Notes under the pieces: generated by a model | Seen by the model: only the letters and a program-made list of their open reading frames with translations | Databases searched by the model: none | What the model was told of the DNA's origin: nothing | Shown: positions 4,089 to 56,052 of the stretch, one piece after another | Position numbering within the stretch: the stretch's first letter is position 1 | How the letters are laid out: every line of letters begins with the position of its first letter | Source: a virus | IMG/VR virus record: IMGVR_UViG_3300040781_000188 | Span: 1 to 61,481 of that record | Strand: one strand, 5' to 3' | DNA length: 61,481 nucleotides | Made by a program: the position numbers and the translations under genes

Positions 4089-4457
4089 ATGGAGAAGAAA
4101 GAAGTCACTGTCATTAGAGAAAGAAGAAAACATAAAAGATCGAAAAAAGTAATTAAGTTTAGAATTACGCCTGAAGAGCAACAAGATATAGTTGGCGAAA
4201 CTAACGATCTTAGTTGTGTAGGTGCTAATTGTAAAATGAACAGTTATGTACCAGAGATGACAAAGTTAGAATTGACTCTTTCCCTTCCTGATGGTGAAGA
4301 ATCTTTTGAAGGTATTGTTGTGCGATGTGATAAAGTCAAAGAAGATGAATATGATACAGCTATATATTTTAGTCAAATTAGTAATGATATAAGAAAGAAA
4401 ATTAATGACTTTATTGATCCAAATTCCGAAGAACAAGAATTTAAAATTGATGGTTAA
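4089..4457 (+). CDS. PilZ domain protein (c-di-GMP receptor), copy 1
   Basis: A 122-residue single-domain protein. It has both parts of the PilZ c-di-GMP-binding motif: RxxxR at residues 13-17 (within RRKHKR) and D-x-S-x-x-G at 40-45 (DLSCVG), followed by the beta-barrel pattern LTLSLPDG and GIVVRCD. Binding of c-di-GMP is predicted from family knowledge. It is the first of seven PilZ genes in this window and stands alone between lysis genes and a structural-looking gene. Confidence 0.88.
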   Translation: MEKKEVTVIRERRKHKRSKKVIKFRITPEEQQDIVGETNDLSCVGANCKMNSYVPEMTKLELTLSLPDGEESFEGIVVRCDKVKEDEYDTAIYFSQISNDIRKKINDFIDPNSEEQEFKIDG

Positions 4458-5013: not shown

Positions 5014-5226
5014 ATGATAGAAAAGAAGAAATATGTTGGACCAGATAGAAGAGATAGTCTGGTCGATCGACGCCATTATGGATTATATGGTAAATATTTA
5101 CAATGGTTATTTAGAAAGAAAAAAAGATTTTATATATTGATTTGGTTGTCTGGTATTGGTTGGGCGTATATATTTATTGAAATCGGAATTTGGTTAGAAA
5201 GACATGGGATAACCCGCGCATGGTAA
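5014..5226 (+). CDS. Small DRR-motif membrane protein
   Basis: About 70 residues from the ATG at 5014, chosen because GGGGG precedes it; an upstream GTG lies inside the hairpin. The N-terminus has GPDRRDSLVDRRHYG, a double DRR motif also seen in the 10510 gene, followed by a basic stretch and one hydrophobic segment (about residues 35-60, LIWLSGIGWAYIFIEIGIWL). Probably a single-pass inner-membrane protein. The stop overlaps the start of the PilZ gene at 5220, so the two are probably translationally coupled. Confidence 0.6.
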   Translation: MIEKKKYVGPDRRDSLVDRRHYGLYGKYLQWLFRKKKRFYILIWLSGIGWAYIFIEIGIWLERHGITRAW

Positions 5227-5522
5227 CCGACAATAGACAATTCTTAAGATTAAATAAGTCCGTTGATTTATTAATAAATGATTCTGTACCTGGATGGACT
5301 AATAATCTAAGTTTAGGTGGAATATCCGCTTTTATTAAAAATGATGTGCCATTATTTAAAGAGTTAAGTCTATCCTTAAAATTACCTAGTGGAAATGCTG
5401 TTCTTATAGGTCAATGTTTACGTTTAAGCAAACTAGAAGATGAACTTTATAATGTTGCTATAAGTTTTGAAAATTTACCAAAACGTGTAAGATCTGCGAT
5501 GATAGACTTTATTAATTCCTGA
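5220..5522 (+). CDS. PilZ domain protein, copy 2
   Basis: About 100 residues from the ATG at 5220, overlapping the stop of the DRR membrane protein. RxxxR is at residues 6-10 (RQFLR) and N-x-S-x-x-G at 29-34 (NLSLGG); the barrel pattern LSLKLPSGNAVLIGQCLR follows. A c-di-GMP-binding single-domain PilZ is predicted. It is separated from the next PilZ gene by about 12 bp. Confidence 0.88.
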   Translation: MVTDNRQFLRLNKSVDLLINDSVPGWTNNLSLGGISAFIKNDVPLFKELSLSLKLPSGNAVLIGQCLRLSKLEDELYNVAISFENLPKRVRSAMIDFINS

Positions 5523-5534
5523 TAAGTGATTGCT

Positions 5535-5876
5535 ATGAACTCACATTTAGGTAACAGACAATATGAACGAGCTACACATCCTGTTCGATTATCTATAAAT
5601 AAACATATATTAGGATCAACTTTAAATATTAGTATTGGTGGAGCATTTGCTATTGTTAATAAAGAAGTACCAGAGATGGATGAACTTGATATTATTTTAG
5701 AATTACCAGATGGAGACTTTGAAGTTAAAGGTACATGTTTAAGGTCTTCTAGTATGGGAGAAGCTTCGTATCATATCGCTTTATTATTTCAAATAGAGAC
5801 TGAAAATGAAGATAATATATTAAGATTAGCTCGATTTATTAATTGCCAGGAGATGCGTTGCCGGGAGATGCGATAA
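5535..5876 (+). CDS. PilZ domain protein, copy 3
   Basis: About 113 residues from the ATG at 5535 (a GTG at 5526 is an alternative). RxxxR is at residues 8-12 (RQYER) and N-x-S-x-x-G at 31-36 (NISIGG), with the barrel strand IILELPDGDFEVKGTCLR. The C-terminus CQEMRCREMR is encoded by a tandemly duplicated ribosome-binding segment (5846-5873) serving the next gene. The stop overlaps that gene's ATG as TAATG. Confidence 0.88.
   Translation: MNSHLGNRQYERATHPVRLSINKHILGSTLNISIGGAFAIVNKEVPEMDELDIILELPDGDFEVKGTCLRSSSMGEASYHIALLFQIETENEDNILRLARFINCQEMRCREMR
5846..5873 (+). repeat. Tandem duplication of a ribosome-binding segment
   Basis: GCCAGGAGATGCG (5846-5858) and GCCGGGAGATGCG (5861-5873) are 13-nt copies with a 15-nt period and one mismatch. 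The second provides the GGGAG just upstream of the ATG at 5876. The duplication extends the end of the PilZ gene in frame. Confidence 0.7.
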
Positions 5877-6125: not shown

Positions 6126-6443
6126 ATGATTGACGACAGAAGATTTTATTCTAGAGGAATTATTGAACTAGATATTGCTGTTGGTCCTAGAGCCAAAGGT
6201 AAAACTGTTAATATATCTTTAGGTGGTATTCTTTGTAGGCTTGATACATTTATTCAATCTGATGTTTGTATGGATATTATAATTACTAAGAACGGAGATA
6301 CGATTGAAATGAGAGGGTACTGTAATCGTATCGAGAAAATAAAGAAAAGAGATTATTTAGCATCCATCGAATTTAGTAAAGATTGTATTAGTCCATTTAA
6401 TAAGAATAGACTCAAATTAGCTGAATATTTAAGAGGATATTAA
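6126..6443 (+). CDS. PilZ domain protein, copy 4
   Basis: A 105-residue protein with RxxxR at 6-10 (RFYSR) and N-x-S-x-x-G at 29-34 (NISLGG), both parts of the c-di-GMP site. The AGGAG is 7 nt before the ATG at 6126. It lies between two leader-tagged genes. Single PilZ domain, no partner domain. Confidence 0.88.
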   Translation: MIDDRRFYSRGIIELDIAVGPRAKGKTVNISLGGILCRLDTFIQSDVCMDIIITKNGDTIEMRGYCNRIEKIKKRDYLASIEFSKDCISPFNKNRLKLAEYLRGY

Positions 6444-7174: not shown

Positions 7175-7564
7175 ATGCCAAAGAAAAGAATATATTATAA
7201 AGGTAAAAAAGTATCTAAAGGTGAAAAGAAAATAATTGATCATTTACTTAAAAGAGAAATTTCTTTTGAACAAGAGAAGACGTTTGATGATTGTAAAACT
7301 AGGAACAATAGAAAACATCTTCGGTTTGATTTCTTTTTGCCGACATTTAAAGTTCTTATTGAATTTGATGGCGAACATCATTATGGTCCTGTTAATAAAC
7401 ATGCTCGTGCTAAATACGTCCATGAACGTACAGTAATAAATGATCAAATAAAAAATAATTATGTAACAACGACAGGATACGGTTTATTACGGATACCGTA
7501 TTGGGAATATGATAAAATAGAAGAGATAATAGACGAGATGATATCAAATCTAGGAAATAAATAA
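7175..7564 (+). CDS. Small PD-(D/E)xK-type endonuclease (DUF559/Vsr-like)
   Basis: About 129 residues from the ATG at 7175, with AGGTG before it. The pattern SKGEKKIIDHLL, RFDFFLP, VLIEFDGEHHY, then GYGLLRIPYWEYD is that of small Vsr/DUF559-like nucleases; the Asp in RFDFF and the Glu in IEFDGE would be the metal ligands. Such free-standing nucleases in phages act in mobility or DNA processing. It overlaps the next gene (TAATG at 7562-7566). Confidence 0.72.
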   Translation: MPKKRIYYKGKKVSKGEKKIIDHLLKREISFEQEKTFDDCKTRNNRKHLRFDFFLPTFKVLIEFDGEHHYGPVNKHARAKYVHERTVINDQIKNNYVTTTGYGLLRIPYWEYDKIEEIIDEMISNLGNK

Positions 7565-8625
7565 TGAACCCATCAAATATGGCAAGAAAAATTTTAATAT
7601 TAGATGATGAACAATCTATTGTTGATATTATATCTAAATATTTAATTAGGGTTGGTTATCAACCAATAGGGTTTATTAATGTTGAAAAAGCGTTAGAAAA
7701 ATTCGAACGAACAGAAGATATTTTTCTAGTGTTAACAGATATAGACATGCCAGATATTGACGGTATAACTGTACTTAAATCAATAAAATCGATAAGAATG
7801 GATGTGCAAGTAATTATTGTTTCTGGTGCAGGATCGTCGAATCAAATTGTTGAAGCTTTAAGATACGGGGCTTGTGATTATTTAATGAAGCCAGTTAATT
7901 TTGAATTACTTAATCATTCTATATCTAAATGCTTTGAACGATTTGATTATATTAAACATCGAGATGAATATGAAAAAAATCTCGAGGAACAAGTTAAAAG
8001 ACAAACAGAAAGTATATATTCCTTATTTAATGAATCAATTAAATCGTTGTCTAAAATAACAGCGTTACGAGATCCTTATACTGCTGGTCATCAAAAACGA
8101 GTAACCGATTTAGCTTTAGCTATTAGTCAGGAAATGAATTTAAGTGAAGATATCTGTCAAAGTATTAAAATAGCCGGTTTACTCCATGATGTTGGTAAGA
8201 TTTGTGTTCCAACAGAAATCCTTGTTAAACCTGCAAGATTGACAAAAAAAGAAATAGGATTAATGCAAGAGCATGTCACTGCTAGTTATAATATTGTAAA
8301 GAATATTCCTTTTCAAGATGTATTAAATCATGATGTTGCCGAAATAATACTACAACATCATGAACGTCTTGATGGATCAGGTTATCCTAGAAATCTTAAA
8401 GAAAATGAAATATATTTAGAAACAAAAATACTTTCTGTTTGTGATGTTATAGAATCTATGTCATTACATCGTCCTTATCGTCCCGCCTTAGGATTAAAAA
8501 AGACATTGGATGAAATAAGGAGAGGTTGTGGAACAGTTTATGATAATGATGTTTGTCAGACTGCTATAGCAATATTGGAACCTTATGGAGATAGTTTAAT
8601 GAACTATTTTAAGGGTGAATCATGA
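7564..8625 (+). CDS. Response regulator with HD-GYP domain (c-di-GMP phosphodiesterase)
   Basis: A 353-residue protein: receiver domain 1-125 with phosphoacceptor Asp59 (LTDIDMPD), Ser87 and Lys109; a helical linker; then an HD-GYP domain about 150-345. Visible HD-GYP motifs are TAGHQKRV (His176), LLHDVGK (His208-Asp209), EHV (His237) and HHERLDGSGYP at 265-275. HD-GYP enzymes hydrolyse c-di-GMP to pGpG or GMP, here probably switched by phosphorylation of the receiver. All key residues appear intact. A cognate kinase could be the 25955-30283 gene. Confidence 0.93.
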   Translation: MNPSNMARKILILDDEQSIVDIISKYLIRVGYQPIGFINVEKALEKFERTEDIFLVLTDIDMPDIDGITVLKSIKSIRMDVQVIIVSGAGSSNQIVEALRYGACDYLMKPVNFELLNHSISKCFERFDYIKHRDEYEKNLEEQVKRQTESIYSLFNESIKSLSKITALRDPYTAGHQKRVTDLALAISQEMNLSEDICQSIKIAGLLHDVGKICVPTEILVKPARLTKKEIGLMQEHVTASYNIVKNIPFQDVLNHDVAEIILQHHERLDGSGYPRNLKENEIYLETKILSVCDVIESMSLHRPYRPALGLKKTLDEIRRGCGTVYDNDVCQTAIAILEPYGDSLMNYFKGES

Positions 8626-10725: not shown

Positions 10726-11034
10726 ATGATAGATACAAGAAAATATGGAAGAGAACTTAGAAACATACCTATTCGTATAGGTGACATTGAATGTGAAACA
10801 TTTAATCTTAGTCTTGGTGGAGCTAAATGTTATTGTGACAATCCTGTTCTTACTTTAAGAGAATTACCTATATGTTTAACATTACCTGATGGGATTCTAA
10901 ATTTTAAAGGTGTTGTTTTACGCTGTGAAGAAACTATTAAAGATCGATTTGAATTAGGGATATTTTTTAAAAATATATCAATGACGGATGACGATAGAAA
11001 TAAATTAGGTTCTTATTTGGGTTATATTTTTTAA
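10726..11034 (+). CDS. PilZ domain protein, copy 5
   Basis: A 102-residue protein with RxxxR at residues 5-9 (RKYGR) and N-x-S-x-x-G at 27-32 (NLSLGG), then LPICLTLPDGILNFKGVVLR forming the barrel. Complete c-di-GMP-binding motif. It follows the DRR-repeat gene by 9 bp and is probably cotranscribed with it. Confidence 0.88.
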   Translation: MIDTRKYGRELRNIPIRIGDIECETFNLSLGGAKCYCDNPVLTLRELPICLTLPDGILNFKGVVLRCEETIKDRFELGIFFKNISMTDDDRNKLGSYLGYIF

Positions 11035-17109: not shown

Positions 17110-18480
17110 CTATTCGACGTTGATTACTGTTACATTTTCTTGACTTACATTAATTTGATGTCCGCCGAATATTACGAACACAATCGGTATACTCTTACAC
17201 CACTCGTATTTTTTAATCGAACTTTCGATATCAGAGTACCCATCAGTTAAACATATAACGAGTGATATTTCTGCATTGTATTCGTCTGTTTCCCATGCTT
17301 CTTTTTGTATTCTATCAAACACAGGATTATGAGATGTTCCACCTCGCCCTTCATATCCTTCTACTTTAAGGAATGACATGAATTTATGGGCTTCTGTTTT
17401 ATCAAATTCTTTTTTCTGCTTTACATCTACATCATGAACATATAACCAAACATATTTAAAATATTGGAACGATTGATGTACGACAGATGAACATTTTTTA
17501 AGTTCTTCATCTGACATAGATCCAGAGGAGTCGGTTGCATATATAATTAGTCCTACTCCTTCCCGTTCTTCCATCATCGTTTGTCCTGGTAAAAGAATTC
17601 CAAGTGGACGATATATTTTGTTTGGCATTTTCCATGTTCTATCATCAGGTCTCATTTGGACATTTGTTTTTAATGATTTTTCAAGCAGTTTTTCCCAAGG
17701 GATTTCGACCGCTAACATACTATCCAAAAGAGATGTTAAACTTCCTGGTGATGTTCCACGAGATTTCATGATTTCGTGAAGAGCTCTAGCTTCAGCTAAA
17801 ACTTTTTCATTAGTTTGTAAAACTTGAGCGCTATTACCCTTCACTTTTTTAGGATCAGTTCCACCAACCTGCACGTTAATGGTAAACGTATTCCCATTTT
17901 CATCAGTCACTTCAACCATTGAATCTCCGGCTACTAAATGTACTTGAATATTGCCGGCATTAATTTGTTTCACAATCCAATCGTATGCTTGTTCAACACT
18001 ACATGTAGGTTGTTCTTTATGTAGTTTTTCAAAATAATGATATCGATCATCATAAGGGACAACTGAATGTGCAACATCCATAAGATCACGTTCAACAACA
18101 TGGTCACATGCTGCTGCCCATATACCATGGTCCCTTTGTCCTTTACGGAGGCCGTGGCGCCCTAGGATATGTAATAATTCGTGACAGATAATATACGCAA
18201 GATGTATATGCGTATAATCTTTTCTTTTTACGAGGTCATAATTGATGTGAATTGTGCCGTCCTCAATATCTTTAGTGTCTTTATCGAACAGTACATAACC
18301 TTCTGCATTCATGCCAGGCATTGAATGGATGCTCCATGCGTATGAATATGCACAAGCACCAAAGAAGTTTAGCCCGTCTGCTTTTTTAGATAATTTAATT
18401 TGGGCTTTGTTTATTTTCGTGTTAACTACAGCATCACTACATTCCTCATATTCTTCTTGTGCTGCTGACTCATTATACAT
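17110..18480 (-). CDS. DUF2201-like metallopeptidase-VWA protein
   Basis: A 456-residue protein with two parts. The N-terminal half has a zinc-metallopeptidase-like motif (IICHELLHILGRHG) followed by WAAACDHVVERDLM. The C-terminal half is VWA-like, with a MIDAS-type start ATDSSGSMSDEEL. This layout is known from DUF2201 proteins, usually encoded beside a MoxR AAA ATPase, as here (8-bp overlap with the gene at 18473). Such pairs act as chaperone-type complexes that handle metal cofactors or assemblies. The phage role is unknown. Confidence 0.85.
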   Translation of the reverse strand: MYNESAAQEEYEECSDAVVNTKINKAQIKLSKKADGLNFFGACAYSYAWSIHSMPGMNAEGYVLFDKDTKDIEDGTIHINYDLVKRKDYTHIHLAYIICHELLHILGRHGLRKGQRDHGIWAAACDHVVERDLMDVAHSVVPYDDRYHYFEKLHKEQPTCSVEQAYDWIVKQINAGNIQVHLVAGDSMVEVTDENGNTFTINVQVGGTDPKKVKGNSAQVLQTNEKVLAEARALHEIMKSRGTSPGSLTSLLDSMLAVEIPWEKLLEKSLKTNVQMRPDDRTWKMPNKIYRPLGILLPGQTMMEEREGVGLIIYATDSSGSMSDEELKKCSSVVHQSFQYFKYVWLYVHDVDVKQKKEFDKTEAHKFMSFLKVEGYEGRGGTSHNPVFDRIQKEAWETDEYNAEISLVICLTDGYSDIESSIKKYEWCKSIPIVFVIFGGHQINVSQENVTVINVE

Positions 18481-19726
18481 TGGATATCTCCTGGATTAAA
18501 TCATACGTCACATCTGGTTGGAGACTGTTCATTGCTTCTGATAGAATACTATAGACTTGTCGTTTCTTCAAACGTTTTTCGATGTCAATAATATTCTGCA
18601 TGATAATAAGTGCTAAATCACGATATTGATTACAATATTTCAGTACGATTTTTGCAATCGGAACAGATATACTTCTTCTGTCTTTATGATTACTGTAGTA
18701 ATTAACTAACGCATATACTAATGCGTAGCGATCTACAGGAGACGAAGGAAGTTGATATTCGTCCGGATGGGAGACAATATACTCCATATCAAATTTCGAA
18801 TATATTCTGTAGTACTTTGCAAAATCTGCCGATGCTTCTTTACCTACATGAGATGTTGCCAAATACATGACAAGATCTTCTCTCATGATGGTATTGTTTG
18901 CTCGTTCATATGCGTACAACCAATTTGAGAAACGAGTCCATGATCGATTCGATCCCCATGCGACATCGACTTGTTCTTCCATGATCCAATATTGACGATA
19001 TAGATCTTGTTCAAGGAACGAAATAACACCAGGATGTACAGAATTGTTTTCATTGGCCAGTTCTGGCAGACGGCTAGGATTGAATGACAAATGCAACTTA
19101 TCGGTGTTTCTGCCGATAGCAAAGTTTGATTTCCAATATTCAAAACTTGGAATCACATTCATCAATGCCATTCGATTGGTGATTGCCGAGCTATGTGTTC
19201 TTGCGCCTGCTTTGTTACTTGTATTTCCAGCGGCACAGAAAGCACATTTTGCTGGTACTTCATAACCTCGAATTGATCTTTCCGAAAACAATTCCTGCAT
19301 TAGTCCTAGGTGTGTTGAGCCACAAAGATGCATATCGTCAAAGAATACAACAACGACAGGAACATTTTTGTTCTCTGCCAATTGATACATTTGACCAACA
19401 ACATCAGGTAAGGACCACGCTGTTGATCGATAGCTTTTGCCACCAATCTCAATAGTGGCAAATTCAGGAATACCACCGAATTCTTCTTGTGGTTTCATTG
19501 CTGCATGAATTGTGATGAGGGCCCAATTGAGTCTCATACACAGATCTCGCATCATCGATGTTTTACCGATTCCTGGTGTTGATAGTAAATACGGCACTGC
19601 AACGTCTGCTCCATCCCAGATAGCGTCTGGATTTTTTGATGCTTGTAAAGCAAGGTTAAAAGCGAGTAACTCATTCATGGCAGTGTGGATGGGCATTGCA
19701 GTTTTCAAAAATTCCGCGTTGATCAT
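18473..19726 (-). CDS. MoxR-type AAA+ ATPase
   Basis: About 417 residues from the start at 19726 (reverse ATG with GGAG upstream); a longer start at 19771 lacks a site. The Walker A motif STPGIGKTS is at residues 49-57, Walker B is VVVFFDDMHLC, and sensor-type CAAGNTSNKAG and SAITNRM follow. It is the ATPase partner of the VWA protein immediately downstream, and the two overlap by 8 bp. The pair forms the only two-gene leftward operon in the first 50 kb. Confidence 0.87.
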   Translation of the reverse strand: MINAEFLKTAMPIHTAMNELLAFNLALQASKNPDAIWDGADVAVPYLLSTPGIGKTSMMRDLCMRLNWALITIHAAMKPQEEFGGIPEFATIEIGGKSYRSTAWSLPDVVGQMYQLAENKNVPVVVVFFDDMHLCGSTHLGLMQELFSERSIRGYEVPAKCAFCAAGNTSNKAGARTHSSAITNRMALMNVIPSFEYWKSNFAIGRNTDKLHLSFNPSRLPELANENNSVHPGVISFLEQDLYRQYWIMEEQVDVAWGSNRSWTRFSNWLYAYERANNTIMREDLVMYLATSHVGKEASADFAKYYRIYSKFDMEYIVSHPDEYQLPSSPVDRYALVYALVNYYSNHKDRRSISVPIAKIVLKYCNQYRDLALIIMQNIIDIEKRLKKRQVYSILSEAMNSLQPDVTYDLIQEISNV

Positions 19727-19759
19727 TCGAACTTCTCCTTTCTTAGGTGGTACATAATT

Positions 19760-20113
19760 ATGGAAATACAAAAGACTGACATGTTAAGTGCATTTAGTCT
19801 TTATCCAACCGATAAGATTAAATTGATTGAAGAATTTTCTAAACCAATACATAATAATGTGTTTTTTAACAATTTAGAAATATTACAACAAGATAGTGAA
19901 TTTATTTTATTTAATGTAGAAAAATGGAGTATGAGACCTGAAGTTTTTTGTCAAGATAAATATAACGAATCTCATTTCTATCAGGTCATTCTTTTGGTAA
20001 ATAACATAAAGTCTATATTTGACTTTATTCCTGATAATTTCGTAGACCGAATTATACTGGCTCCAAAGTATCAACAAATAATAAAGTTATTAGGTCAGAC
20101 CATTTATACATAA
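19760..20113 (+). CDS. Putative baseplate wedge protein, gp53/LysM-like
   Basis: About 117 residues from the ATG at 19760, with AGGTGG upstream; the longer start at 19685 lies inside the divergent gene. The pattern NVEKWSMRPEVFCQDKYN, then FYQVILLVNNIKSIFDF, then LAPKYQQIIKLL resembles the LysM-like core of T4 gp53-type wedge proteins. The match is by pattern only. Confidence 0.5.
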   Translation: MEIQKTDMLSAFSLYPTDKIKLIEEFSKPIHNNVFFNNLEILQQDSEFILFNVEKWSMRPEVFCQDKYNESHFYQVILLVNNIKSIFDFIPDNFVDRIILAPKYQQIIKLLGQTIYT

Positions 20114-20115
20114 TA

Positions 20116-20143
20116 TTTCTTTATAACATTTATAAATATTAAA
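20116..20143 (+). promoter_or_regulatory. Candidate promoter, motif copy A
   Basis: The sequence starts TTTCTTTATA and ends AATATTAAA. It matches 24 of 28 positions with the element at 52703, and a third copy is at 51715. It lies 21 bp before the 20164 gene, shortly after the minus-to-plus strand switch. A phage promoter is inferred from repetition and placement. Confidence 0.5.
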
Positions 20144-21958: not shown

Positions 21959-22250
21959 TTCTGTGGCTCCTATTGGACCGATGACTAATACTTTGCGCCC
22001 AAGATCCCCTATGAATTCACGATTTGTTAGAATGGGAACACCTGTACGGAGAGCAAGTTTAAGTACAAGTGTTCCCTCTGTACCAAGTAAGAATAATTTA
22101 GGTTTGGGGAATATTGATCGTATGAGGAGAAATGTTAGTGTCTCTCCCACTACAGGTACAAAGATGTCATCAACAGGATTAAAATTAGCTGGGAAAAATG
22201 TGCCACCGGGAACAGCTATAATGAATGTCCCAGTTAGGAGATTACGATGA
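21918..22250 (+). CDS. Small leader-tagged Pro/Ser/Arg-rich protein
   Basis: A 110-residue basic protein starting MISLLEYPMPQRS (leader with Glu at 6), with AAGGA upstream inside the previous gene. Its composition (Pro, Ser, Thr, Arg, Asn) suggests disorder. It overlaps the next gene at ATGA. Unknown function. Confidence 0.55.
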   Translation: MISLLEYPMPQRSNSVAPIGPMTNTLRPRSPMNSRFVRMGTPVRRASLSTSVPSVPSKNNLGLGNIDRMRRNVSVSPTTGTKMSSTGLKLAGKNVPPGTAIMNVPVRRLR

Positions 22251-22729
22251 ATTCAACCCTTTTAAAGGTTGCTGTTAGTAATGAATTAATGTTAGAAAAT
22301 CAAATACCAAGAGATCCTTCATTAAGTAGGATAGTAAAAGATCCATCTGTTGTTAAATTTATCACTTTAAGTAAAAAACTTTTAAATAAAGAATTAACGC
22401 CACAAGAAAAGAAAGAATATCCCAATCTATTAAAAGATCCTAAAGTACAGGCATATATTCAAGCATCAAAGAAAGTAGGTCAAAGAATAGGTTGGATTAA
22501 AGGTGGAATTTCAGGAACAGTTATTGGAGGATTAGCTAGTACAGGACCATCTGCTGCATTAGGTGCCACCGGTATTGGTCTTGCTGCTCTTGCACTTTTA
22601 GGTGCTATCGCTGGTGGATTATCTGTAGGTTATTTGGCTTCTAAGATTTATGGCATATTAAGAAAATGGAAAACTGAAGAAGAACTTACTAAGGGCGGAT
22701 TAGATAGTGGCGCATTAGTAAGATTGTAA
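22247..22729 (+). CDS. Protein with Gly-zipper membrane-like segment
   Basis: A 160-residue protein. The N-terminus holds NELMLENQIP, a possible LxE site. Residues about 90-135 form a long Gly/Ala/Leu stretch (STGPSAALGATGIGLAALAL and following), compatible with membrane insertion or tight helix packing. An ejection or holin-like role cannot be judged. The start overlaps the previous stop (ATGA). Confidence 0.58.
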   Translation: MNSTLLKVAVSNELMLENQIPRDPSLSRIVKDPSVVKFITLSKKLLNKELTPQEKKEYPNLLKDPKVQAYIQASKKVGQRIGWIKGGISGTVIGGLASTGPSAALGATGIGLAALALLGAIAGGLSVGYLASKIYGILRKWKTEEELTKGGLDSGALVRL

Positions 22730-22741
22730 AGGGAGGCGAAC

Positions 22742-22810
22742 ATGATATATTTAAATCTGTTTAGGATATCTTTACGATTTAAACTCCCTCTGTGTAAAGG
22801 AATATTGTGA
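22742..22810 (+). CDS. 22-residue leader ORF coupled to the FliN-like gene
   Basis: A short ORF, MIYLNLFRISLRFKLPLCKG-IL, has an excellent GGGAGG ribosome site 6 nt before its ATG. Its TTG TGA end overlaps the GTG start of the next gene, so ribosomes finishing it would be placed on the FliN-like start. It may be a coupling leader, or a small hydrophobic-basic peptide in its own right. Confidence 0.5.
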   Translation: MIYLNLFRISLRFKLPLCKGIL

Positions 22811-23082
22811 CACAAGAAGAAATATTAAGTAAAAATCGATCTATAATAGGTAATATTGAAGTTGAAGTCGAAATTCGTGTTGGTTCGACTAAGATGTTAA
22901 TTGAGGATATATTAAAATTAGGACCTCAAGCAATTATTAAATTAAATAAATCAAAATATGATCCATTAGATGTATTCGTTAATGGAGTATTATTTGCAAG
23001 AGGGACAGTCGTGAAGATCTCTGGGAGGGATACCTATGGGATCAAAATTACTGAATTCATATCCCCAGACCAACGGATGTAA
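22807..23082 (+). CDS. FliN-like SpoA-domain protein (flagellar motor switch homologue)
   Basis: A 91-residue protein starting at GTG 22807, with AAAGGA 5 nt upstream. Nearly the whole length matches the FliN/SpoA pattern: VEVEIRVGSTKMLIEDILKL, GPQAIIKLNK, then PLDVFVNGVLFARGTVV and YGIKITEFISPDQRM. In bacteria, FliN forms the lower ring of the flagellar switch (or the sorting platform in type III secretion). It lies next to a PilZ gene. A phage copy could act on the host motor, or serve as a structural module in the baseplate. Confidence 0.88.
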   Translation: MTQEEILSKNRSIIGNIEVEVEIRVGSTKMLIEDILKLGPQAIIKLNKSKYDPLDVFVNGVLFARGTVVKISGRDTYGIKITEFISPDQRM

Positions 23083-23098
23083 AGTAAGGATATCTGAC

Positions 23099-23443
23099 AT
23101 GTACAAAAACCGCCGAGATAATAATCGTATTGAAGTAGGGATAGATGTAACATATATTCTAGCCGATGGATCTGAAGTTAGAGTGTGTCGGACTGTTGAT
23201 GTAAGTCCAGGAGGAATGGCTATTTATGCAGATCAAATATTCCATGCGAAGACACCTTTAAAGTTTTATTTTAATACTAAACCTAAAGAAGTGTTTGATT
23301 GTGAAGTTGTATGGTGTCATAAAATCCCAGTTGTTGCAGGAGACATTCCTAAACCTTGTGAGTATAAAGTTGGACTTAAATATGGTGACGCTATTCTTGA
23401 AAGAGTAAGCGAAATCTTAAATGAAATAGAGGCAAGGAAATAA
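23099..23443 (+). CDS. PilZ domain protein, copy 6
   Basis: About 114 residues from the ATG at 23099, with AAGGA upstream; an ORF start at 23036 would overlap the FliN-like gene. RxxxR is at residues 6-10 (RDNNR) and D-x-S-x-x-G at 34-39 (DVSPGG). The sequence is typical of bacterial PilZ proteins. It lies 16 bp after the FliN-like gene, recalling the YcgR (PilZ) action on the flagellar switch. Confidence 0.9.
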   Translation: MYKNRRDNNRIEVGIDVTYILADGSEVRVCRTVDVSPGGMAIYADQIFHAKTPLKFYFNTKPKEVFDCEVVWCHKIPVVAGDIPKPCEYKVGLKYGDAILERVSEILNEIEARK

Positions 23444-23445
23444 CA

Positions 23446-24513
23446 ATGCCGTTAGGATTCGAATCAAATTCGTTGATTGAACATGAATTTATTGGAACTG
23501 TTTTACCAGATTTAGATCCTTTACAAAAAGGCAGATATAGAGTACATATCCCAGAATTGATGCAACATATATCAGAACAAAATGGTATATGGTGTAAGAA
23601 TCATGTGCATGCGTGGAGAATAACTCCTTCCGCTGATGGTGAGTATGGGAGTTATTTTCCACTTCATGCGGATACTAAAGTCATTATTAAATTTTATAGT
23701 AACGATATAAACACTGGGTATATTTGTCGAATAATATCTGATGCCTTAGATCAGACAGATAAAGAAGGACAAGATGCAGTAACCGTTAAACCATCATTGA
23801 AAGATAGAGATGAACAATATATAATCTTTAAAACGCCGAAAAAATTCAATGTATTTTATGCAAATGAAGAAACTGAAAACGAACCGAACACAATTTACTT
23901 AGTATATAATCGAGACGGTAATCCGGAGAGGAGAACGGTTTATCGTATTGATGAATCGGGTATCCATCTTTGGACTCGTGATAATAGAAGGGTCAGAATA
24001 TTATTAGATGAAAATAGACAAATTGATGGAAACCAAACCGAATATATTAAACTTTCTAGAAAGCGAAATATTGGAGAGCATGATAGTCTAGCAGTACGTG
24101 GAAATAAGATAACTAATGTGATAGAAAATGAAGACCGTACTGTTTATAAGACTAGAACAACTAATATACACGAGAATGAAGATAAGACTATTAAGAAAGA
24201 CCAAATTGAAAATGTAGAAGGTAATAAAGATAATCTCATCAAAGGAAATCTTACAATTCAAGTGCAAGGTGAATGTTCGATATCTGTTGATGGAAAATGT
24301 AATATATGGAGTGGATCGGAAATTAATGCTGTTGCTCCTATGATTAATTTAAATTGTGGTACAGCTTCTAAAGTACCATCCAAGACGTCTAAACCTGCAG
24401 AACCTGCGTTACCAAAAACAACAGTGCGTGATCTTGGACCTGGGGAAACTGAGGAATATGATCTTGAAGATTCTGTTGGTGATAAATGTGATGACGCAAC
24501 TAAGAGGGTTTAA
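23446..24513 (+). CDS. Baseplate hub/spike protein, gp5/VgrG-like
   Basis: A 355-residue protein. The N-terminal part has the gp5-type OB fold (FIGTVLPDLDPLQKGRYRVH, then GSYFPLHADTKVIIKFYSND). The C-terminal third is a repetitive beta-helix (repeats such as IENEDRTVYKT, IHENEDKTIKK, VEGNKDNLIKG), typical of the membrane-piercing spike. No lysozyme domain is inserted. The acidic end (GPGETEEYDLEDS) follows. It should form the trimeric tail spike. Confidence 0.8.
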   Translation: MPLGFESNSLIEHEFIGTVLPDLDPLQKGRYRVHIPELMQHISEQNGIWCKNHVHAWRITPSADGEYGSYFPLHADTKVIIKFYSNDINTGYICRIISDALDQTDKEGQDAVTVKPSLKDRDEQYIIFKTPKKFNVFYANEETENEPNTIYLVYNRDGNPERRTVYRIDESGIHLWTRDNRRVRILLDENRQIDGNQTEYIKLSRKRNIGEHDSLAVRGNKITNVIENEDRTVYKTRTTNIHENEDKTIKKDQIENVEGNKDNLIKGNLTIQVQGECSISVDGKCNIWSGSEINAVAPMINLNCGTASKVPSKTSKPAEPALPKTTVRDLGPGETEEYDLEDSVGDKCDDATKRV

Positions 24514-25577: not shown

Positions 25578-25949
25578 ATGTCTAATAAATTAAAAACATT
25601 TGTTATTGATGATGATGATTCTGTTATGCGTGTTTTTGTGTTGTTATTAGAAAAACTAGGTTGCGAGTCTAATATGGCATTATCTACTAAACATGCGATT
25701 AAATTAAATAACAAAGAATTATTAGATTCTGATCTTGTATTTTTAGATATAGGAATACCAGGTGAATCTTTTAAATCTAATCTTGATGATTTATTTAGTT
25801 TAAAAAAAGATATGAAAATAATTGTAATGTCTGGTGCAATTTATGATGACGAACGAACTCTAATGAAAGATCGAGGAGTTTATAAAATTATAAGTAAGCC
25901 TGTGTCCTTAGAAGAGTTAAAAGAAATTATAGGTCTCATAGGAGAATAA
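25578..25949 (+). CDS. Stand-alone receiver (CheY-like) protein
   Basis: A 123-residue single receiver domain: the acidic pocket VIDDDD is at residues 9-14, the phosphoacceptor is in VFLDIGIPG (about Asp57), Ser is in VMSGA, and Lys is in ISKPV. No output domain. It lies 5 bp before the giant hybrid kinase and is probably its phosphorelay partner. Stand-alone receivers can act like CheY on flagellar switches, which is notable given the FliN-like gene nearby. Confidence 0.88.
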   Translation: MSNKLKTFVIDDDDSVMRVFVLLLEKLGCESNMALSTKHAIKLNNKELLDSDLVFLDIGIPGESFKSNLDDLFSLKKDMKIIVMSGAIYDDERTLMKDRGVYKIISKPVSLEELKEIIGLIGE

Positions 25950-25954
25950 TCGTT

Positions 25955-28900
25955 GTGCAAAAAAATGTTTGTAGGATATTATTGGTTATATTATTATTAA
26001 TAATACCAACACTTTCTAATGCTAATTTTAAACTTAGAGTTGGCGTTTACGAAAATTATCCAGTTATTTTTATGGATGGTGATACACCGAAAGGTTTATT
26101 CATTGATATATTAGAGCATGTTGCTAAGGGTGAAGGTTGGACTCTTGAATATGTTAAATGTGATAGCTGGATAGAGTGTTTCCAAAAAGTAAGATTTGGT
26201 GGTATTGATATTCATGTAGGTGTCGCGTATTCAATTGAAAGAGACGATTATTTAGATTATAATAAAGAATCAATTCTTACATATTGGACAACAATATATC
26301 AGAGACCTTTAGGTGGAATCAACAATATTTTAGATTTGGATGGTAAAACTGTCGCTGTTATGGAAGGTGATTATAATGCTGAAGAATTTATAAATTTAAC
26401 TGAAGAATTCGACATTAATTGTGAGTATGTATGGGTAAAACAACCAATAGAAGTTTTTGATAAATTAGTGAATAATGAAGTTTCTGCGGCTATTATAAAT
26501 AGTATTAGTGGTATGGTTAATAGTGTCGATTATGATGTAAGACAGACATCTATTGTATTTAATCCTTTTGGATCTTTTTTTGTAACACGAGAAGGTAAAT
26601 TCCCTTTAGTGTTACAAGCTATTGATGATCATATTAAAATTGAAAAGAAAGATAAATTGTCATATTATCATTCTCGATTAAATTATTGGATTTCCAAAAT
26701 TAATCCAAGTTATAAAATTGACTTGATATTTATTTATTTATTTTGTGGAGCATTAGGTTTAGTTTTTATATTTTTATATTTTAAAGAAAAGGAAACTAAA
26801 GCTCCAATTAGAATAAGTTTAGTATATTTAATTATAGGAACTATTTGGATTGTTGTTAGTGATAATCTTATGTTTGGGATCACTGATCCAGAAAATTACA
26901 GGCAGTTTCAAACGTTAAAAGGTATATTGTATGTTATATTAACTACATGTCTAATATTTGTTCTTATTAGACATAGTATTCAAAGAATAAGAGATAATGA
27001 AACGAGATATAGTAAAGTAATACAGACTGTTCCACATGGAATGTTAGAACTAGATAAATATGGTGTGATTAAGTTAGCGAACACTACATTTTTTGAAATG
27101 ATTGGATATGGTAATGGTGAATTAATAGGTCAGAAAGTTCAAAGTTTTGTTGATTCTAAATCTATTAAAGATATTAATGAAATGCTTGGTAGTATACGTC
27201 AAGGTTATCCTAATAAAAACACTAATTGGTTTGGTAAAGCGGTAACTAAACGTGGAAGGACTATTGATATTGAGGTAAATTGGAGTTATTTGTATGGAGA
27301 TGATCATATATCTGGTATAGTTGCTGTTGTTACCGACAACACAGAAAAGAATAAAATTCAGATTAGATCTCAAGTAGCTAATGAGATATTAAATTTACTT
27401 AACAGAACTATCGAAATAGATGAAACTATACAGCAGTGTTTAGATTTATTAAAAGATAAACTTTTTATATCTGCTGTCGCTGTGAGATTGACTAAAGATG
27501 GAGATTACCCGTATTTTAAATCTCAGGGGTTCGATGAAGTTTTCACAGAAAAAGAAAAGTGCCTTTTAGCAGTGAAAGAAGTAATTTGTGTTGATCCACA
27601 TGATGAAGACTGTGAACATGTTTTAGATTGTCTTTGTGGTTGTGTTATTGAATACGATGAAGAAATATCTCCTACTCATTTCACAGAAAAGGGATCTTTT
27701 TGGTCGAATAATCTTTGTCAATTCTTCCAGAATTTGTCTATTGAAGATAAAGAACGATATCATATAAGAGGTTCTTGCGAAGTTGCAGGTTTTAAATCTA
27801 TTTGTCTTATTCCTCTTCGTTTTGGGAATAGAACAATTGGTTTGTTACAATTAAATGACAGACGCGTAGGTGTATTTACTAAAGATGTTATTAATTTCTT
27901 TGAAGGAATTGCTGATAGTTTAGGTATAGCTTTATATCGAAAAGTAACAGAATTAGAATTAACGAAAAGTGAACGTACTCTAAATGCTATATTTAATGCG
28001 GCTCCTATTGGTATGGGTATAATTAATAACAGGATTTTTGGAGTAACAAATAAGCATCTTCATAAAATGATAGGTCGTGGGCCAGAAGAACTTTTTGGTA
28101 AAAGTGCAAGAATACTTTATCCTACTCAAGAAGAATATGAAAGAGTTGGTCGAGAAAAACATCCTCAAGTCGAAAAATATGGTATAGGATGGGTCGAAAC
28201 CAAATTCAAACATAAAGACGGTACAATTAAGGATATTATTCTTAGTTCTTCAAGTATTGGTGAAGATGGTGAAATGGTTTTTACTAGTGTTGATATAACA
28301 GAACGTAAAAATGCTGAAGAAAAGATTATAAGAAGTGAAGTGAAGTATAGAGGATTATTTGAAAACATGTTAGATGGTTTCGCTTTACATGAAATAATAG
28401 TTAATGGTCACGGGGTACCTATTGATTATAGATATTTAACTGTTAATCCTGCATTTGAAAGAATAACAGGGTTTAAAAAAGATTATGTTGAAGGAAAAAC
28501 TGTTAAAACTGTGTTACCTAAAATAGAGGATCATTGGATTCAAAGATTTGGTAATGTTGCTTTAACAGGGGAATCTGATAATTTCGAAGAAGAAGTTATG
28601 AGTATGGATAATAGAGTTTTTGAGGTAACAGCATATAGCCCTAAAACAAATCAATTTGCGGTTTTATTTCAAGACATAACTGATCGTAAAAGGGCAGAAA
28701 ACGATCTAAAAGAGAAAAATGATCAATTTGATAAGTTAATATCAGGGTTATTTGATGGGTTTGTTAGAGTGTCATTAGACAGAATTGTTATTTCTGCTAA
28801 TCGTGCTTTTTGTGAAATGATTGGTTACACTGAAGATGAATTAAAAGCTATTACATTTGAGAATTTTACACATCCTGATGATTGGGTGTGGGAGAAACCT

Positions 28901-30283
28901 ATTGTTGAAAAATTAGTAAATGGCGAGCAAATACCCCCTTATGAAAAAAGATATATCCATAAAGATGGGAGTGTTATAGATATTGAACTTGCTCCTTATC
29001 CTATTTCTGATGATTCTGGTAATGTTGTTGAATTATGGGGTATTGCAAAGAATTTAACGCCAGTTAGAAATGTTCAATTAGAAATAATAGAAAAAGAAAA
29101 ACAATTACGTCGGGCTTCTAAAATGGAAGCTGTTGGTACTTTAGCTGGTGGATTAGCTCATGACTTTAATAATATTATTCAAATAGTAAGTGGTAATGTT
29201 CAATTAATGCGTATGGATTTGGATTCTGACGGAAAAACTTCTGATTGGAGTAAAATGTTAAATGATATGTTAGAAGCTTCTGAGAGAGGAGCTGCTATTG
29301 CAAAACGTCTTTTAACTTTTAGTCGTCAAGTCGAAAGCCATCTTGTACCAATTGATATCAATGATGAAATTATTATTGCTCATAAATTATTAGACAGAAC
29401 TGCAACGTGGCCGGTTTTAGTTAATATTAAATTAGATCTTGATGAAGATATTTGTTTAATTTTAGCGGACTCTACACAGATTAATCAGATCGTTACAAAT
29501 CTATGTATTAATGCTAAAGATGCAATGCCTTCTGGTGGATCAATAACAATTAAAACTAGAGTTGCAGAATTAGATGAATTATATTGTCGTTCTCAACCTG
29601 AAGCTGTCCCGGGAAGATACGTTTGTATGGTAGTTGCTGATGATGGTATAGGTATGAAAGCTTCTATTCTTGAAAGAATATTTGAACCATTTTTCACAAC
29701 TAAAAGTACAGGAAAAGGAACAGGATTAGGTTTAGCTGTTGTTTATGGTATTGTTAAAAATCATAATGGTTTTATAACTGTATATAGCGAAGAAAATATC
29801 GGAACGGAGTTCAAAGTGTATGTGCCATGTACAGATCAAACTCTTAGAGAAAATAATAGTTCTTCTGTTTGTGATTTATCTCAAGGTAATAAAGAATTAA
29901 TACTTATTGTAGATGATGAGTCTAGTATACGGTTTATTCTTAAAGATATATTAAGAAGGTATAATTTTAAAGTTCTCGAAGCTAATAATGGAACTACTTG
30001 TTTAGATTTATATAGTAAATATATGGATAAAATAGAACTTGTTATTTTAGATCTAGTTATGCCTGGAATAAGCGGAACAGAAACATTAAAAGAAATTTTA
30101 AAGATTAATCCTGATGCTAAAGTTATTATTTCTAGTGGGTATTCGTCTAATGGTCCAGTTAAAGATTCAATTGAAAATGGAGCATATTCTTTTATAAATA
30201 AACCATATACATTAAATAATCTTATTAGTGTCATTAAGAGAGTTCTTAGTGGCAAAAGAGATGGAGTAGATGAGATATGTTAA
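25955..30283 (+). CDS. Giant hybrid sensor histidine kinase
   Basis: A 1442-residue protein starting at GTG 25955. In order: signal peptide (1-23), periplasmic SBP_bac_3-like binding domain (about 25-245), membrane segments (about 256-275, 286-303, 324-339), a PAS domain (350-470), a Cys-rich GAF-like domain (472-668), three further PAS domains (to about 1045), HisKA with His1069 (GGLAHDFNN), HATPase ([31 protein letters not shown]) and a C-terminal receiver with Asp1366 (VILDLVMPG). All catalytic motifs look intact. Very unusual for a phage; probably host-derived. Confidence 0.93.
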
Positions 30284-34494: not shown

Positions 34495-34875
34495 ATGGCA
34501 AGAAAGAATCAAACTGTAAATACACAAGACTTATCGACCCTAGAATTAGCAGATCAAAACCTTACAGATAAACTAGGGGAAGCATTTGATAAAATTATTG
34601 AAAGAGATTTTGGACATTTGATGGCTCCAGAACCTATTGTAACACCATTCGGAGTGCAACATTTAGATGCACTCTTAGGTGGCGGTATAGTATCATCTGA
34701 CCCTATTCTCTTCAGCAGTACACCAGAAACAGGTAAGTCCACTTTAGCTTTTCAATTTAGTAAAGCTTTTCAAATGTTATATCCTAACTCGGTTGTTGTG
34801 TATTTAGATATTGAAGGATCTGGAAATAAGAAAGAAAGTGAATTCAGACAATCTAGACAAGAAATCTTTGATTAG
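34495..34875 (+). CDS. uvsX: UvsX/RecA-like recombinase, N-terminal part (frame-disrupted)
   Basis: A 126-residue reading frame with GGAGG upstream. Walker A is at residues 75-83 (STPETGKST), and VVVYLDIEGSG is the next conserved RecA-core strand. The frame stops at TAG 34873-34875 after QEIFD. The -1 frame resumes at 34872 with LDLNRFKHEPIVV and continues the recombinase for over 340 residues. No slippery heptamer lies here, so a one-base indel or sequencing error is most likely. Confidence 0.78.
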   Translation: MARKNQTVNTQDLSTLELADQNLTDKLGEAFDKIIERDFGHLMAPEPIVTPFGVQHLDALLGGGIVSSDPILFSSTPETGKSTLAFQFSKAFQMLYPNSVVVYLDIEGSGNKKESEFRQSRQEIFD

Positions 34876-35948
34876 ACTTAAATCGTTTTAAGCATGAACC
34901 TATCGTAGTAACTGTTGATGGTGTTTTTGAATTAATGGAACGTTTGATTCAAATTAAACAACAGTTTGAAGAAAAACTAAACAAACAGTTTTATATTGCT
35001 TTTATTTGGGATAGTATTGCGTCGACTCCTATCCCTAAAACTTTAGAAGCTGAAAATCCAAATTCTATTATTGGAGCTAAGGCTAGACAAGTTAGTTTTC
35101 TTTTGGACAAATATACTCCTCTAATTAAATTTAACAAGGTTACTTTAATTTGTATAGATCAGATTAGAGCTAATATTAAAATTGATGGCCCATATGTTCA
35201 ACAAGAGAAATCTGTTGGTACATTTAAAGATTATAAATCCGCAACTAATATTTATGCATTACAACATAGAACTCAGCAGTGGATTTTTCTAAGTAAAAAG
35301 AAAGTTTTGCCACCATCTGAAGGACTAGGTATTGATGGATGGTATATGGATATTTATACTGAGAAGAATAAACTTGCTCCGAGTCAACATGCTGTTACTT
35401 GTGTATTTGATAAAAAGACAGGCATTCATAAGTTTTGGTCTGAGTTTACATTTCTTATGGAACCTACTCCGAGTGAGAAAAAGATTTATAAGAGCTCTCC
35501 TCCTGCTTCATTATTTATGATGAAGAAAGTATCTCCAAGGGTTAAACTTGTCGTAACAGATGAACATGGAACTAAAATGTGGGAGAGTGAACCGTTCTAC
35601 AGAAAAAACGCAAATGAAAAATATGAATCAGATCCTGAATTTGCAAAATGGTTTGATTATGCTGTTCAAGTGAGTGTGTATAATAGAATTACTCAAGGTA
35701 TATTCAAATGTGATCAAGGTCAATATGATGCCGTTTCTGATGAATGTACTATTGACCCAACAGTCCATAATGTCTTAGTAGATACTTTGGGTGATGAAGA
35801 TACTGTCGGTGCAGCTCCGGAAATACAGAATGAAACGCAAGAGCCTCAGGAAGAAGTAGAACAAGTTGGTGAGGAATTTTTCCTCGGACAACCAGCTGTT
35901 GAAGCAAAATCTGGGTATAAATCTGTATTTGAATCAGATACGCCGTAA
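34872..35948 (+). CDS. uvsX: UvsX/RecA-like recombinase, C-terminal part
   Basis: This is the -1-frame continuation of the preceding ORF, with no good start codon at the junction; the first ATG is at 34935, inside the core. It holds FYIAFIWDSIASTPI (Walker B region), the conserved KARQVSFLLDKYTPLI and TLICIDQIRANI (DNA-binding loop region). The C-terminal extension is acidic (EEVEQVGEEFF). Together with the first part it would give about 484 residues. Strand-exchange function requires frame restoration. Confidence 0.75.
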   Translation, partial: LDLNRFKHEPIVVTVDGVFELMERLIQIKQQFEEKLNKQFYIAFIWDSIASTPIPKTLEAENPNSIIGAKARQVSFLLDKYTPLIKFNKVTLICIDQIRANIKIDGPYVQQEKSVGTFKDYKSATNIYALQHRTQQWIFLSKKKVLPPSEGLGIDGWYMDIYTEKNKLAPSQHAVTCVFDKKTGIHKFWSEFTFLMEPTPSEKKIYKSSPPASLFMMKKVSPRVKLVVTDEHGTKMWESEPFYRKNANEKYESDPEFAKWFDYAVQVSVYNRITQGIFKCDQGQYDAVSDECTIDPTVHNVLVDTLGDEDTVGAAPEIQNETQEPQEEVEQVGEEFFLGQPAVEAKSGYKSVFESDTP

Positions 35949-48817: not shown

Positions 48818-49176
48818 TGCTATACACATACAAAGCCAAATATTTATCTAATTATGATGGGGACACTATCGACTTCTTAGTTGATTTAGGTTTTGGTATT
48901 TCTTATAAAATAAGAGTAAGGTTATTAGGGGTTAATACTCTAGAAATAAGATCTAAGATTGAAGAAGAAAGAGTTAAGGCAAGATTAGCAAGAGATGTTG
49001 TAAAAATTGAATTGTCTAATGCTGAAGAAATTATAATCAAAACAAAAAAAGATAAGACCGGCAAATATGGTCGATATTTGGCCGATATATTATATAAGCG
49101 CGATAAAATGGCAGAGATGCCAACTAGTTTGGCTCAATTACTTTTAGAACGAGAATTAGCTGTTCCGTATGAATAA
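48817..49176 (+). CDS. Staphylococcal-nuclease-like (SNase) endonuclease
   Basis: A 119-residue single SNase domain. It shows YDGDTIDFLVDLGF, YKIRVRLLGVNTLEIR (the Arg and Glu of the active site), KDKTGKYGRYLADI with the second Arg, and AQLLLERELAVPYE. Calcium-dependent cleavage of DNA or RNA is expected from the family. No signal peptide or leader tag is present. Neighbours are tagged and PilZ genes. Confidence 0.85.
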   Translation: MLYTYKAKYLSNYDGDTIDFLVDLGFGISYKIRVRLLGVNTLEIRSKIEEERVKARLARDVVKIELSNAEEIIIKTKKDKTGKYGRYLADILYKRDKMAEMPTSLAQLLLERELAVPYE

Positions 49177-49189
49177 AGAAAGACTTGCT

Positions 49190-49537
49190 ATGATAACTGT
49201 CGAAAGAAGAAAACACAATAGAATTAAAACACCTAAAATTTCATTTGCTGCTATTACCGGTAAAGAACTTTCTATGATAGTAAATAAGAAAGTTGTATTT
49301 GGTAGAGTGTACGATATAGATCCTGATGGGTTATGTGTAACATCTGATACGTTATTACCCGAGGGTAAAAATATTGAATTAATATTAAGACTATTTAAAA
49401 AAGATGTGAAATTTAATGGTAATATTATTCGAGCTAATAAAGAACACGACACTACATTTCTGGCGTTTCTATTTAATTGGAAAAATACACCAGAACAGAG
49501 TAAAGAATTTCTTCAAAAATTCTTAGAGACTATATGA
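49190..49537 (+). CDS. PilZ-like protein, copy 7 (divergent motif)
   Basis: About 115 residues from the ATG at 49190; an in-frame ATG at 49169 overlaps the SNase end. RxxxR is at residues 7-11 (RKHNR), but the second motif reads DIDPDG at 42-47, with Asp where PilZ normally has Ser. The barrel-like strands ELILRLFKKDVKFNGNIIR follow. c-di-GMP binding may be weakened or lost. Confidence 0.7.
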   Translation: MITVERRKHNRIKTPKISFAAITGKELSMIVNKKVVFGRVYDIDPDGLCVTSDTLLPEGKNIELILRLFKKDVKFNGNIIRANKEHDTTFLAFLFNWKNTPEQSKEFLQKFLETI

Positions 49538-54511: not shown

Positions 54512-55270
54512 ATGAGTAATAATTTGGTTATTGATCCTATAATTCATAATTTACCAGTTGCTATATTAGTTGTTGATAAAGAGCGAAAAGTAATGTTGTC
54601 TAATAAAGCTGCTGAGTTCCTTGCAAATAAATCAGAGTCACAATTATTTGATTTATATGGCGGACAAGCTTTAGGCTGTATTCATGCAGATTCTGAAGAA
54701 GGTTGTGGATTTACAGAACATTGTGATGCTTGTGATGTTAAAAATGCAGTTTTAGAAACATTCTTATCAAAGAAAGATAGAGAGTCGTTTGATACAAAAA
54801 TTAATTTAAAATTATACGGGTCTAGAGATATAAAAGTATCTGCAACATATTTAAATTTAGATGAAATTAGAGATGAAATTGTTAGTGTTGAAAGAAGAAT
54901 AAGTCGTGGTAGAAGAGAGAGTGATTTGCGTAAAGAAATGGTTATAGTTGCTATGGAAGATGTGACTGAGTTTAAAAAGAAAGAACGAATGTCTGCAACA
55001 TTAGAAACTGTTGGTGCATTATGTCATGAAATGAATCAACCATTGCAAGTTCTAGAAGGATCTCTTTCTCTTATTAAACTTGATTTGGATAGTCCGAAAG
55101 ATAAAAATAAAGAAATAAATGAAAATCTTAAAATTGCATATGAAGCACAAGTTAAATTAGCTAAAATTATATCGGATCTTAAACAATTAAAAGAATACGA
55201 AACGAAACAATATTTATCTGGTCGAATATTAGATATTGAAAAATCTGCAAATAGTGGTGAATTGTCATGA
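54512..55270 (+). CDS. PAS-HisKA histidine kinase fragment lacking the ATPase domain
   Basis: A 252-residue protein. The N-terminal PAS domain (about 1-150) has the cysteine cluster GCIHADSEEGCGFTEHCDACD seen split over bacterial PAS sensors. The HisKA region follows, with the phospho-His in LCHEMNQPLQVLEG and a helical hairpin to about 240. No HATPase motif follows; the gene ends just before terL. It could be a phosphotransfer or decoy module, accepting phosphate from another kinase, or a degraded kinase. Confidence 0.75.
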   Translation: MSNNLVIDPIIHNLPVAILVVDKERKVMLSNKAAEFLANKSESQLFDLYGGQALGCIHADSEEGCGFTEHCDACDVKNAVLETFLSKKDRESFDTKINLKLYGSRDIKVSATYLNLDEIRDEIVSVERRISRGRRESDLRKEMVIVAMEDVTEFKKKERMSATLETVGALCHEMNQPLQVLEGSLSLIKLDLDSPKDKNKEINENLKIAYEAQVKLAKIISDLKQLKEYETKQYLSGRILDIEKSANSGELS

Positions 55271-55286
55271 AGAAAATGAGGAACTA

Positions 55287-55775
55287 ATGTTTCAAAGATC
55301 TGCATCTATAAGCAAGATGGTAAGGGCGAAAAAAATTAATCAAGTTTCTCCCGCTGAGAAAAAACGCAGAGCTTTAGAAATATGGAAGTGCAGAACTAAT
55401 CCTTTCTATTTTATTCATAATTATTGTTTTCTTGATGAAGGTGGAGGTCAAACTCTTTATAAGAAAGAGTTAATGCATAATAAAATGCGAAGAGTTGTTA
55501 GATCAATTTTTCGTTATAAAAAATGCATATTGATGGCTTCTCGTCAGTTAGGAAAATCTACTATTGCTGCTTGTTTAGTTGCATGGTCTATGGTATTTTT
55601 TCCGAGAAATAAAGCAGTCATATTGAACATGAAACAAGATGCTGGTAAACGGAATCTAAGAACAATTAAATTCATAATAAAGAATTTGCCGGTTTGGATG
55701 GTTTCAGAAAGACCATTCAAGAATAAGAGTGATGCGGTAACATATTGTGAATTGTTTAATGATAGTAGAATCGAT
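55287..55775 (+). CDS. terL: Terminase large subunit, exon 1
   Basis: The first 163 residues of a T4-gp17-like packaging motor. The ATG at 55287 follows GAGG; the upstream frame to 55236 is inside the previous gene. Walker A lies at residues 84-92 (ASRQLGKST). The coding frame runs to the group I intron after NDSRID. The terminase uses ATP to pump DNA into proheads and cuts concatemers. Spliced to exon 2 it gives about 615 residues, the usual gp17 size. Confidence 0.85.
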
Positions 55776-56052
55776 TAATTATTAGTCGCCTCATACGGTA
55801 ACGTATGTTGAATAACTCTGTGAATTCAGGGGAAGCCTAAGTCATAACAGATATGGTAATCCTGAGCCAAGCTTGTGTCCGCTAACACAGGAAGGTGCAA
55901 CGACTATCCCGAGAGGGAGTACACTGGAAGCCCAGTGGAAGCGCAGAGCATCCTAGTTTAAAGATGGACTCTAGGATGATGATATAGTCTAGACTATATG
56001 GAAACATATAGCAGTCCACAAAAGGACGCCTAGAATTTAGCGAATTCTAGGG
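55776..56052 (+). ncRNA. ORF-less group I intron in terL (277 nt)
   Basis: Folding by eye gives a full group IA-type core. P1 pairs exon CGAT (55772-55775) with GTCG (55785-55788), with the splice-site U-G pair. P2 55792-55807 has a GUAA loop. P3 pairs 55816-55822 with 55942-55948, P4 55826-55830 with 55861-55865, P7 55902-55907 with 55984-55989. P7.1 is 55908-55917, P7.2 is 55922-55937, and P8 is 55949-55978. P9 elements lie at 55994-56011 (GAAA loop), 56014-56027 and 56029-56051. Terminal G is 56052. Length leaves exon frames joined. Confidence 0.92.

Follow-up and report, generated by a model that had tools for sequence, protein, structure and literature searches.

The closest described relative of the protein reported here is the C-terminal domain of FliN (TIGR02480/PF01052), a component of the flagellar switch ring. 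FliM and FliN are present in this C-ring with the composition FliM1:FliN3. For FliN, dimerisation of SpoA domains is known, both among themselves and with FliM (PMC11087270). CheY-P binding has been assigned to FliN residues L68, A93, V113, and D116 and FliH binding to V111-V113, and the disordered N-terminal part of FliN is reported to be dispensable (PMC6700473); the FliN patch for FliH has also been given as L68, A93, V111, V113, and Y118 (PMC7505661). Stand-alone SpoA domains of similar minimal size (about 70-90 aa) occur in type III sorting platforms as SpaO-C, YscQ-C, and HrcQb. Small proteins acting on motility machines include the YcgR/PilZ flagellar brakes and the EpsE clutch, which are cytoplasmic, act on the rotor, are encoded by cellular genes, and have folds unrelated to SpoA; YcgR-type PilZ proteins act on FliG/FliM/MotA (PMC12713396). 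Among phages, Pf4 and others encode small proteins for which an action on a motility machine has been proposed (PMC11436027), but the organelle inhibited is the type IV pilus, and none of these proteins copies a motor part, whereas the protein reported here is FliN-like.

The window analysed comprises the whole stretch of 61,481 nt (positions 1-61,481) of the IMG/VR virus record IMGVR_UViG_3300040781_000188. The SpoA gene and its surroundings consist of the following features:

22247-22729, + strand, Gly/Ala-rich protein of 160 aa, probably membrane-spanning, forming the upstream flank of the SpoA slot (51% to its orthologue in the related phage G001)
22742-22810, + strand, putative leader open reading frame of 22 codons with a strong SD (AGGGAGG), read directly from the sequence
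22807-23082, + strand, SpoA/FliN C-terminal-domain protein of 91 aa with a GTG start (Pfam, PDB FliN chains, NCBIfam, Foldseek)
23099-23443, + strand, PilZ protein of 114 aa (Pfam PilZ, E 7.9e-10) with an intact RRxxxR and DxSPGG c-di-GMP motif
23446-24513, + strand, T4 gp5-like baseplate hub/spike with an OB domain and a gp5 C-terminal trimerisation domain (Pfam Gp5_trimer_C, 3.4e-9; PHROG 430, 1.8e-15)

The SpoA gene is preceded by a ribosome-binding site (AAAGGA) 4 bp upstream of its start, and the TGA of the leader reading frame overlaps its GTG (GTGA), by which the two may possibly be translationally coupled. The gap to the PilZ gene is 16 bp, using the PilZ start at 23099, which is more likely than that at 23036. 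The initial annotation had placed the gene between small putative virion genes and a PilZ gene just before a tail spike; the small membrane-like protein upstream and the PilZ gene downstream were recovered, and the tail spike is better described as a gp5/VgrG-like baseplate hub. A T4 late-promoter-like sequence (TATAAATA) at 20131, before the operon, was not relied on because other copies fall inside genes.

The reading of 22807-23082 as a FliN-like SpoA protein along almost its whole length, made originally from the sequence alone, was confirmed by profile and sequence searches. The Pfam model FliMN_C (PF01052) matched with 70 bits (E 1.6e-19; cut-off 23.8) over protein residues 14-85 and profile positions 3-72 of 73, so that the protein is almost nothing but a SpoA domain. 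When PDB chains were searched by phmmer, the best matches were the Salmonella FliM-FliN fusion, Thermotoga FliN, and Salmonella/E. coli FliN (E 1e-13 to 3e-12), with alignments running to the C-terminal end of the protein, and SpaO and YscQ ranked far behind. The NCBIfam models ranked in the same direction, FliN (TIGR02480) scoring 73.5 bits, FliY 59, SctQ (TIGR02551) 34.4, and FliM 21, although the FliN score stays below the equivalog cut-off of 84.05. The match to SctQ is much weaker (cut-off 100.8), and no type III genes were seen in the window that would supply a SctQ/SpaO sorting-platform context. Judged by these scores, the phage SpoA is nearer to FliN than to FliM or type III SctQ. A FliN-motif DNA pattern had a single match in the window and none in 100 shuffles. 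The protein displays the FliN-type features GxTxM, PLDxxxNG, ARG, YGIKIT, and a terminal SPxxRM; its best sequence identity is about 40%. An AlphaFold2 model built from three sequences reached a pLDDT of 52 and a pTM of 0.40; with this low-confidence model Foldseek returned SpoA proteins as PDB matches 1-39 (best E 1.3e-4, TM about 0.46). We take the SpoA fold from the sequence, with which the model is no more than consistent.

Unlike FliN, the phage protein is encoded without a flagellar operon and misses the disordered N-terminal region. Further differences concern functional positions, for which the published FliN numbering was mapped onto the phage protein through the phmmer alignment to PDB FliN: L68 corresponds to V25, A93 to K50, V111 to V68, V112 to V69, V113 to K70, D116 to D75, and Y118 to Y77. 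The hydrophobic FliH/CheY-P patch (L68, A93, V111-V113, D116) thus reads V, K, V-V-K, D, with lysine replacing a hydrophobic residue at two positions (A93K and V113K), whereas the fold-defining SpoA positions are conserved; the last hairpin carries a two-residue insertion. In a comparison with 96 further SpoA domains, drawn mainly from planctomycetes and SAR324, a basic residue was found at position 93 in a single one and at position 113 in 17; the majority of these 17 resemble FliM-type C-domains when typed by eye, the tree-based split not having separated FliN and FliM types cleanly. Since position 113 is also basic in a Listeria-like FliY and in a stand-alone planctomycete SpoA, V113K need not abolish function. 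In a tree of SpoA domains the phage branch was long and its support weak, and no donor was identified.

On the evidence of its large terminase TerL (56110-57411), which resembles terminases of jumbo and T4-like phages, and of the gp5-like hub, the window is assigned to a T4-like myovirus. The related phage G001 (109 kb) is collinear with it over about 60 genes (hub 64% identical, TerL 75%), and orthologues in G001 bracket the SpoA gene on both sides (22247-22729 and the PilZ gene). Because it is flanked by phage genes collinear in G001, the SpoA gene is judged to belong to the phage rather than to contamination, and its composition (GC 32%, GC3 24%) fits the phage. Between the same two neighbours G001 has unrelated genes of 67 and 193 aa in place of SpoA, with the PilZ orthologue still beside the hub. 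HMM searches found no SpoA above the cut-off in G001, G002, or G003, and none of 34 further phage records found through TerL gave a SpoA match (37 related records in all). From this gene comparison the SpoA gene is considered accessory and not structural, an insertion or deletion in an otherwise collinear hub operon. Other features of the fragment are:

17110-19771, - strand, AAA ATPase and DUF2201 (metallopeptidase/VWA) pair, on the strand opposite to most genes and conserved in G001 and G002
34495-35948, + strand, UvsX/RecA-like recombinase gene, interrupted near 34870-34935 by a change of reading frame
55766-56011, + strand, group I intron (Rfam RF00028, 111.8 bits) interrupting the TerL gene (55236-55778 / 56110-57411)

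TerL of G001 has no intron, and its UvsX/RecA-like gene is continuous in one frame; the frame change in the window may be either a sequencing error or real. As a host clue tRNA genes were sought in the window, and none was found.

Wider searches returned no second virus member of the family. SpoA matches in INPHARED were rejected as phage homologues, the matches examined being bacterial chromosome contaminants: Microcystis phage MaAM05 (L002) has fliM, pomA, glyS, and fabI beside the match, the Salmonella S.Kent 1-2-1 "phage" (L004) an enteric FliN sequence, and the Listeria LM 4-11-1 "phage" (L005) a complete flagellar operon, so that each looks like bacterial chromosome. Another INPHARED record (L003), an unannotated fecal contig of 75 kb, holds a canonical FliN domain. 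Neither a protein scan of IMG/VR (2.9 million contigs) nor two FliN-motif DNA patterns gave a match, which speaks for rarity rather than absence because the DNA patterns recover just part of the FliN genes; with the second pattern, 22 of 175 loci were recovered, two of them the window itself, and many of the loci are not FliN-bearing. The open-access literature searched describes no phage-encoded FliN. In the collections searched, the gene thus seems to stand alone as a viral member of the FliN family. A genome-collection scan with the phage SpoA retrieved just distant planctomycete and SAR324 FliNs. All 52 SAR324-phylum genomes (G005-G056) carry FliMN_C, in 2-13 copies each and mostly in 4 or more, which suggests expanded SpoA paralogues in this phylum.

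The fragment is rich in genes related to c-di-GMP. Seven PilZ genes lie in the window (4089-4457, 5190-5522, 5526-5876, 6126-6443, 10726-11034, 23099-23443, and 49169-49537), six of which keep both RxxxR and [DN]xSxxG, and several have orthologues in G001. No PilZ was found in 10 more distant phage relatives, and two of the window PilZ proteins searched against INPHARED had no phage match. This set of seven is possibly more unusual than the SpoA gene. Associated signalling genes are:

7564-8625, + strand, response regulator with an HD-GYP-type domain (Pfam HD_5, 1.2e-36; Response_reg, 1.1e-21), with an orthologue in G001
25578-25949, + strand, lone receiver protein beside tail genes
25955-30283, + strand, hybrid sensor histidine kinase of 1442 aa with an apparent periplasmic-binding-like N-terminus, beside tail genes

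The product of 7564-8625 is probably a c-di-GMP phosphodiesterase, and a related kinase (37%) is found in G001 at the same place as the 1442-aa kinase. As annotated, this phage group carries an unusual set of c-di-GMP and two-component genes, in which SpoA is the sole flagellar component seen.

A recurrent N-terminal motif bears on where the SpoA protein may act. The pattern M[IL][SP][ILV]..[LY][FL]E (for example MISISQLLE and MIPISYLFE) was found in 10 of the 75 window proteins, with 0.19 expected and a maximum of 3 in 2000 shuffles:

6446, 9804, 10293, 21767, 30277, 49545, 50291, 53410, and 54084, + strand, examples of small proteins with the N-terminal pattern

The motif resembles T4 capsid-targeting sequences (CTS), including their xxE cleavage site (PMC9026906), and its carriers look like many injected internal head proteins. 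Several G001 proteins share such an N-terminus; by visual inspection, the product of the gene of 193 aa that occupies the SpoA slot is one of them (MVSLMIYLYE). The SpoA N-terminus (MTQEEILSKNRSIIG) differs from that of T4-like internal (ejected) head proteins in having no capsid-targeting sequence with an xxE site, and the neighbouring PilZ protein likewise has none. Because both lack a CTS-like N-terminus, action inside the infected cell is suggested for them rather than injection, with unprocessed packaging as a possibility.

We propose that the SpoA protein mimics FliN, either joining or titrating host FliM/FliN, and that it is a poor binder of FliH or CheY, a reading to which we tentatively give nearly an even chance. 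The C-terminal (SpoA) domain would have been acquired by a T4-like myovirus from a bacterial FliN, and infected cells would produce the protein along with the product of the neighbouring PilZ gene. By analogy with FliN it would pair with host FliN or FliM in intertwined SpoA dimers, and in this way be incorporated into the C-ring or the export sorting complex, or titrate them. As its FliH/CheY-P site holds lysines, it would behave as a blocked FliN and lower flagellar export or switching, perhaps jointly with the PilZ protein. For this mimic we infer expression, partner binding, the direction of the effect, and a flagellated host.

Of the two functions suggested in the initial annotation, we favour, as a hypothesis, a decoy directed at the flagellar motor of the host; it is plausible and best supported, by a conserved core, an altered patch, coupling to a PilZ gene, and a c-di-GMP-rich phage. 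Against it count the single instance of the gene, the weak structure model (pLDDT 52), and the position in a virion-gene operon, which suggests late expression, when a block of motility may matter little. The other suggestion, a second use of SpoA as a ring component in the baseplate, with the hub as a further possible site, draws on the same position, two genes before the gp5-like hub within a structural operon, and on the ability of SpoA domains to build rings in C-rings. A baseplate-ring part should, however, be conserved with the hub, and SpoA is not: it is replaced by other genes in G001 despite the 64% identical hub, it is absent from the other relatives searched, and no PHROG family contains it, which makes a virion role very unlikely. 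A small dimeric scaffold for phage c-di-GMP/PilZ signalling or another phage complex, with no direct flagellar action, would suit the close PilZ neighbour, the seven PilZ genes, HD-GYP regulator, and histidine kinases of the fragment, and the retention of the PilZ gene beside the hub in G001; but since G001 keeps this gene without any SpoA, PilZ does not need SpoA, and with no known SpoA-PilZ pairing found we consider such a scaffold unlikely.

Conservation of the SpoA core residues and of the C-terminal SPxxRM, together with the dispensability of the missing N-terminal part (PMC6700473), would also allow a FliN-like helper, standing in for host FliN or adding to it so that the motor or export continues to function during infection. 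A93K and V113K change the functional patch, though, and the score falls short of the FliN equivalog cut-off, so that a helper appears distinctly improbable. We give the same low weight to a recently captured passenger gene without function: its singleton status would fit, but the domain is intact, a ribosome-binding site is present, and GC and GC3 are phage-like, and the strong divergence of the protein implies that the gene either has resided in the phage for long without decaying or came from a donor not yet sampled.

Mechanism aside, a viral FliN-family gene seems not to have been recorded in the collections and open-access papers searched. It is rather unlikely, though conceivable, that this is the first known virus to disarm or steer the flagellar motor through an altered C-ring subunit together with a phage PilZ c-di-GMP module, controlling motility at the level of both the rotor and the second messenger. 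If the proposed mimicry is true, the protein would be a virus-made, subunit-level mimic of the flagellar switch and a small tool for probing C-ring assembly, FliH docking, and CheY binding. It would also tie phage infection directly to the control of motility and c-di-GMP, where the known phage examples considered here concern type IV pili.
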